A DNA stretch of 37,448 nt from an uncultured delta proteobacterium (lineage in GTDB: Bacteria; Myxococcota_A; Polyangia; Polyangiales; JADJMO01). Below, piece after piece: positions 28,499 to 28,829 of this stretch (positions are counted from its first letter, which is position 1; the number at the start of each line of letters is the position of its first letter). The stretch lies in the NCBI GenBank assembly GCA_903923175.1, contig CAIXWQ010001109.1, positions 1 through 37,448 of the forward strand, written 5' to 3'. The position numbers were made by a program, and so were the translations under genes. Under the pieces are notes generated by a model. That model had not been told where the DNA came from and did not search any database. It saw only the letters and a program-made list of their open reading frames with translations.

Positions 28499-28562
28499 GG
28501 TGTTCCAAGCCGGACGGCGAGGGCCAAACCTTTTGGCCGCGTCGGCCGTCTAAGTAGATGAA

Positions 28563-28755
28563 AGTCGCAGGCACCACCGAGAAGGCCGCGGGTCGCGGCG
28601 CCCTCACGGGTGTGTGGTGGCAGGGTTCGGTTCGACTCCGAGGCCTGCGATCCGGGAACCTGGTCACACAGACCGGTTCGCCTTCGAGAGCAGAGACGAC
28701 GCGTGTGCCCGAGCTTCCCCCGGCGACAGTCCGGAGGAGGCTCGGCGGTATTTTT
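28563..28755 (+). ncRNA. Candidate structured intergenic RNA with tRNA-like fold
   Basis: TCGCAGGC (28565-28572) pairs GCCTGCGA (28643-28650); T-arm-like TTCGG-TTCGACT-CCGAG (28626-28642); hairpins GCCGCG-GGT-CGCGGC and CCC-TCAC-GGG; GAACC(T)GGTC-ACACA-GACCGGTTC; terminator at the 3' end; -10-like TAAGTA at 28551. Confidence 0.42.
28709..28755 (+). terminator. Rho-independent terminator
   Basis: CCGAGCTTCCCCCGG-cgacagt-CCGGAGGAGGCTCGG, 14 of 15 positions paired (one G-T), followed by cggtaTTTTT. Confidence 0.75.
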
Positions 28756-28829
28756 GCGAGGCGCTGCGACGCGACGCTGCGCGACGCCGCGCGACGCAGC
28801 GTTGGCCGACGCGGCTACCGATGACGCGG

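Follow-up and report, generated by a model that had tools for sequence, protein, structure and literature searches.

A tRNA-shaped RNA without an anticodon arm, predicted from intergenic DNA of myxobacteria

We describe an RNA of about 90 nt, uncatalogued so far, which as judged from comparative sequence analysis reproduces a tRNA's acceptor end and elbow but has no anticodon. It is intergenic and is found in some myxobacteria. In the window, by which we mean the whole stretch of 37,448 nt that was analysed, the element measures about 86 nt and lies on the plus strand (Table 1). We lean toward the view that it is a stand-alone RNA acting in trans, that it mimics tRNA in the acceptor/T-arm half and the elbow while lacking the anticodon, and that it is mostly controlled by sigma-54.

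Table 1. Parts of the RNA and nearby features in the window
Feature	Position	Strand	Evidence
Conserved tRNA-like RNA	28565..28650, model span 28564-28654	+	R2 95.5 bits, E 3.9e-15 per genome
Acceptor-like stem, 5' strand UCGCAGGC	28565..28572	+	Compensatory changes in 3/8 pairs
Helix P2, 5' strand ACCAC, partner 28614-28618	28573..28577	+	Compensatory changes in 5/5 pairs
Linker CGAGAAG	28578..28584	+	AA invariant across aligned copies (column composition)
D-arm-like hairpin, 5 bp, loop GGGUC	28585..28599	+	4/5 pairs compensatory; loop GG invariant, 21/21
Short hairpin, 4 bp and variable 4-nt loop, at the place of the anticodon arm in tRNA	28600..28611	+	95.5% of cells paired
Helix P2, 3' strand GUGGU	28614..28618	+	Covariation alignment
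Linker, P2 to T-arm	28619..28625	+	Length varies in alignment
T-arm, 5 bp, loop UUCGACU	28626..28642	+	3/5 pairs compensatory; T-loop nearly invariant
Acceptor-like stem, 3' strand GCCUGCGA, final A at discriminator position	28643..28650	+	Covariation alignment
3' tail UCC	28651..28653	+	A-CC-N in most copies
TGGC at about -24, with no -12 GC at the right spacing	28534..28537	+	Sigma-54 scoring
Imperfect terminator-like hairpin, then T5	28690..28755	+	Visible in window; inconsistent in relatives

The original prediction gave this RNA a length of about 190 nt, which is not supported: the conserved part measures about 90 nt. A DNA search (BLAST) of relatives returned matches that cover only positions 28564-28654 of the window. 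They came from the window's own genome, at a second place, and from four further genomes in its family; the RNA is present in all five sampled genomes of that family. Covariance models were built from six sequences and then from 21, and a covariance search of the order found 25 places in 20 of the 184 genomes, two of the places being an identical sequence at two contig ends of one genome. Most carriers have one or two intergenic copies, two being the maximum, and copies are retained at corresponding loci in related genomes. Absences are not firm, because no more than 11-23 candidates per genome are scored in the initial stage of the search. Samples of the class and phylum outside the order yielded zero true matches; the sole weak match there (L104) is a tRNA-Pro within a tRNA array. 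An exact pattern run against GTDB species genomes hit 17 contigs, every one from a MAG, with titles naming Myxococcales, Polyangiaceae, Myxococcaceae or Deltaproteobacteria. Plasmids gave no matches and annotated phages only chance-level ones. Three loci scoring 42-48 bits (L034, L035 and L063) seem to form a divergent subtype, marked by a CCCGG-GGGA(T)-CCGGG hairpin. This subtype is present in G158 and G159, 13-Mb genomes in a single contig each that may come from cultured strains.

Folding energy does not settle whether the RNA is real. A 216-nt region folds better than 200 of 200 shuffles (z -3.5) and the 91-nt core by itself is unremarkable (z -1.5), so comparative evidence is needed to decide. 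That evidence is strong. Across the 27 pairs of five helices in an alignment of 22 sequences, 99.0% of cells are paired, and 16 of the 27 pairs show compensatory changes, against 0-5 when partners are slid and a mean of 7.7 in shuffled alignments. Although a model guided the later alignments, the first one, of six sequences, was unfitted and already shows 100% pairing and six compensatory pairs. RNAalifold recovered the same structure independently, and the pairs that score highest in mutual information are located within the five helices. A structured RNA was therefore rightly predicted here: it has 22 homologues, and its outer stem and covariation are retained in relatives.

The helices are an acceptor-like stem of 7-8 bp, the enclosing helix P2, a hairpin with a GG loop, a short hairpin and a T-arm. 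Read 5' to 3', the acceptor strand is followed by P2, an A-rich linker, the GG hairpin, the short variable hairpin and the closing strand of P2, after which come a linker, the T-arm, the 3' strand of the acceptor and A-CC-N. The 8-bp outer stem (28565-28572 with 28643-28650) and the 5-bp T-arm with its TTCGACT loop (28626-28642) are both where the original prediction placed them, and the stack of 13 bp that it described is found as 8+5 bp in most copies and 7+5 in two. Its two inner hairpins, of 5 bp and 4 bp, are also present, but they are not a simple pair since the 5-bp helix P2 encloses them. Several G-U pairs fit the plus strand only, which fixes the transcribed strand. The GG loop and the T-loop resemble a tRNA elbow, a likeness of loops that is no proof of docking. 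One could argue that such an element is a decayed tRNA or a repeat kept by chance, given its tRNA-like parts, its copy number of up to two per genome and its patchy spread. We find this barely credible, because compensatory changes occur in all five helices, the distance to the promoter is fixed, the loops are invariant and corresponding loci are retained in related genomes.

Two hallmarks of tRNA, the acceptor stem and a T-arm with a canonical T-loop, are present. An anticodon arm of 5 bp with a 7-nt loop is absent, and the short hairpin that stands in its place is, by its predicted shape, unfit to serve as one, so decoding is excluded by anatomy. ARAGORN likewise finds 0 genes in the window, and the view that this is not a working tRNA holds. 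Most copies end in A-CC-N, which recalls the host tRNA genes, where CCA is likewise encoded in part; most copies do not encode CCA in full.

This end brings us to the main rival of our reading, that the RNA is tRNA-like, non-decoding and charged: it would carry a CCA tail, be aminoacylated (C1-G72 and A73 as in tRNA-Pro) and donate its amino acid outside the ribosome. With a 7-bp reading of the acceptor, C1-G72 occurs in all aligned copies and A73-CC in most, the host tRNA-Pro genes have the same kind of end, and the best match of the model outside the family is a tRNA-Pro. That resemblance may, however, stem from the CG ends alone. CCA is incompletely encoded, identity elements are few, the anticodon is missing, and no conserved neighbour encodes an enzyme that transfers amino-acyl groups. 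We regard a charged donor as unlikely, though it deserves to be kept in mind.

How the RNA is switched on is suggested by the DNA in front of it. A sigma-54-type -24/-12 site (GG-N10-GC) precedes the RNA in 15 of 23 copies; it is of the TGGCRYG-N5-TGC type, with its C 13-15 nt ahead of the start of the model. The sigma-54 weight matrix was written to match the general consensus. The background is one site per 1090 nt, giving a binomial probability of 2e-33, though the copies are related. Two loci of the divergent subtype, L035 and L063, retain the promoter element at the same distance. The TAAGTA proposed as a -10 box does exist in the window (28551-28556), but it is not supported as a shared feature: most copies carry the sigma-54-type site at its fixed distance instead. 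Control is not uniform, since a good sigma-54 site is missing from the remaining eight copies, the window copy among them. In the window copy no well-spaced site was found, the TGGC of Table 1 included, and a consensus scan of the window found zero sigma-70 promoters. Four genomes have two distinct copies, and in each a well-placed site stands at one copy at most. The dyad YGAC-N6-GTCR, a tentative enhancer-site motif spotted post hoc, occurs 7 times against 1.6 expected, or about fourfold. No arrangement of sigma-54 site plus dyad was seen at tRNA arrays. An AT-rich box like GAAAAGTTTTCC lies about 30-50 nt before the RNA in the window (about 28526-28536) and at L022, L023, L029, L030, L031 and L038.

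Gene neighbourhood is not conserved: among 23 loci only a frequent kinase-like cluster and a few locus pairs recur. The neighbours differ at nearly every locus, and some, such as the gene downstream in the window and at several other loci, are convergent, so the RNA is an independent gene. The suggestion that its transcript is separate from that of spoVR is borne out by the unrelated neighbours of copies elsewhere. Downstream, the second bulged hairpin and the terminator-like hairpin of the original prediction (about 28656-28755) can be found in the sequence, but they are not conserved and are not part of the element. Other copies are not consistently followed by a hairpin plus T, and comparable downstream hairpins occur in 59 of 184 random windows. 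The hairpin at 28690-28755 with its T5 may still mark the end of the window transcript, outside the conserved element. A GC-rich near-palindrome (28767-28812) lies directly downstream of the stretch covered by the original prediction.

A copy of the RNA is also carried by an uncultured phage, on an IMG/VR contig of 99.5 kb, where it scores 95.6 bits and lies near genes matching the terminase large subunit and the portal protein. The sigma-54-type sequence TGGCATGGCGTGTGCT stands at the same distance from it as in the bacterial copies. The phage RNA sits about 60 nt ahead of a helix-turn-helix gene, and this alone might recommend a cis-acting leader or riboswitch. We consider that highly improbable, since the downstream gene is convergent in the window and at several loci and the downstream genes are unrelated. 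About 13-16 motifs of the TTGGCATSNNNYGTGCTATA type, nearly identical to one another, lie within 20 kb, and the promoter of the phage copy is one of them. These motifs also hold an extended -10-like TGCTATAA, so the use of sigma-54 in the phage is not certain. Between 2487 and 9846 of L105 (IMGVR_UViG_3300037851_000192) the TTGGCATSNNNYGTGCTATA motifs occur on both strands, mostly directly before an ATG, and they have the look of a phage promoter used repeatedly, whose mRNAs would be nearly leaderless. The same promoter was sought in other phages and the idea dropped: the pattern matches single sites in other contigs, probably by chance.

Taking the trans-acting mimic as our working explanation, events would run as follows. 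RNA polymerase with sigma-54, together with an enhancer-binding protein, would turn the RNA on. The transcript would begin at most a few nt from the acceptor stem, leaving little or nothing to trim at the 5' end, and the 3' end would be trimmed and then completed with CCA as in tRNA. The product would occupy proteins that bind the acceptor end or the elbow, and its partner could be an enzyme of processing, modification or charging, or one that attacks tRNA. The outcome would be either a decoy or regulator, or a charged non-decoding RNA; we prefer the former because decoding is excluded by anatomy and because a phage carries the RNA. A broader claim can be made only tentatively: that myxobacteria and a phage have an inducible class of non-decoding tRNAs, switched on by sigma-54, matured like tRNA and CCA-tailed, which under stress or infection either tie up the enzymes of tRNA metabolism or supply them. 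With a sigma-54-type promoter at many bacterial copies and at the phage copy, a role in tRNA metabolism or in conflict between phage and host is directly testable, and a covariance model of the RNA now exists.

The RNA is a family without a match in Rfam 15, tRNA-shaped but with an anatomy that excludes decoding. A search of Rfam with the window and 20 homologue loci returned no family, tRNA-Sec included, at gathering or at permissive thresholds, in keeping with the original prediction, which recognised no known family. A literature search, mostly of open-access texts, found no such family described.

The bacterial Y RNA YrlA (RF02553) is also a noncoding tRNA mimic, with a tRNA-like domain. 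The gene of YrlA lies in an RNA repair operon that is activated by RtcR together with sigma-54 (PMC7790460). It is thus fair to ask whether our RNA is a Y RNA, a relative of YrlA and partner of Ro60. With its tRNA mimicry and its sigma-54-type control it calls to mind the rsr-yrlBA-rtcBA operon (PMC7790460), and several carriers have divergent TROVE genes. Against this, RF02553 gives only sub-cut-off matches in five carrier genomes and none of them is the present RNA. Those in G000 and G002 lie elsewhere, on contigs that also hold a divergent TROVE gene and an array of tRNA genes; the present RNA is a gene apart. TROVE matches are missing from some carriers, no clear RtcR was found in the carriers of the window's own family, and the RNA is never beside a TROVE gene, the nearest case being about 5 kb apart in G009. 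We therefore think a Y RNA very unlikely. A link to the RNA repair operon was likewise set aside: TROVE occurs in 52 of 184 genomes of the order and RtcR in 70 of 184, and neither tracks the RNA. Arrays of 20, 25 and 35 tRNA genes lie near divergent TROVE (Ro60-like) genes at L097 (5539-12219, G000:C296), L098 and L102.

Three other systems invite comparison. The pseudo-tRNA tRNAOther of Bacillus cereus is reported to be tRNA-like and outside translation, and its deletion to lead to a cellular phenotype (PMC3399842); compared with that description, the present family differs in not being a cloverleaf. With tmRNA the RNA shares the acceptor, the T-arm and the absence of an anticodon arm, but it is only about 90 nt long and the ARAGORN and Rfam tests for tmRNA are negative. 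The nearest relevant Rfam model is tRNA-Sec (RF01852), whose cut-off is 47 bits; the RNA scores 16.9. Like tRNA-Sec, the RNA has an 8-bp acceptor on a 5-bp T-arm, a stack of 13 bp, with a canonical T-loop; unlike it, the RNA has no anticodon arm and has the extra helix P2.
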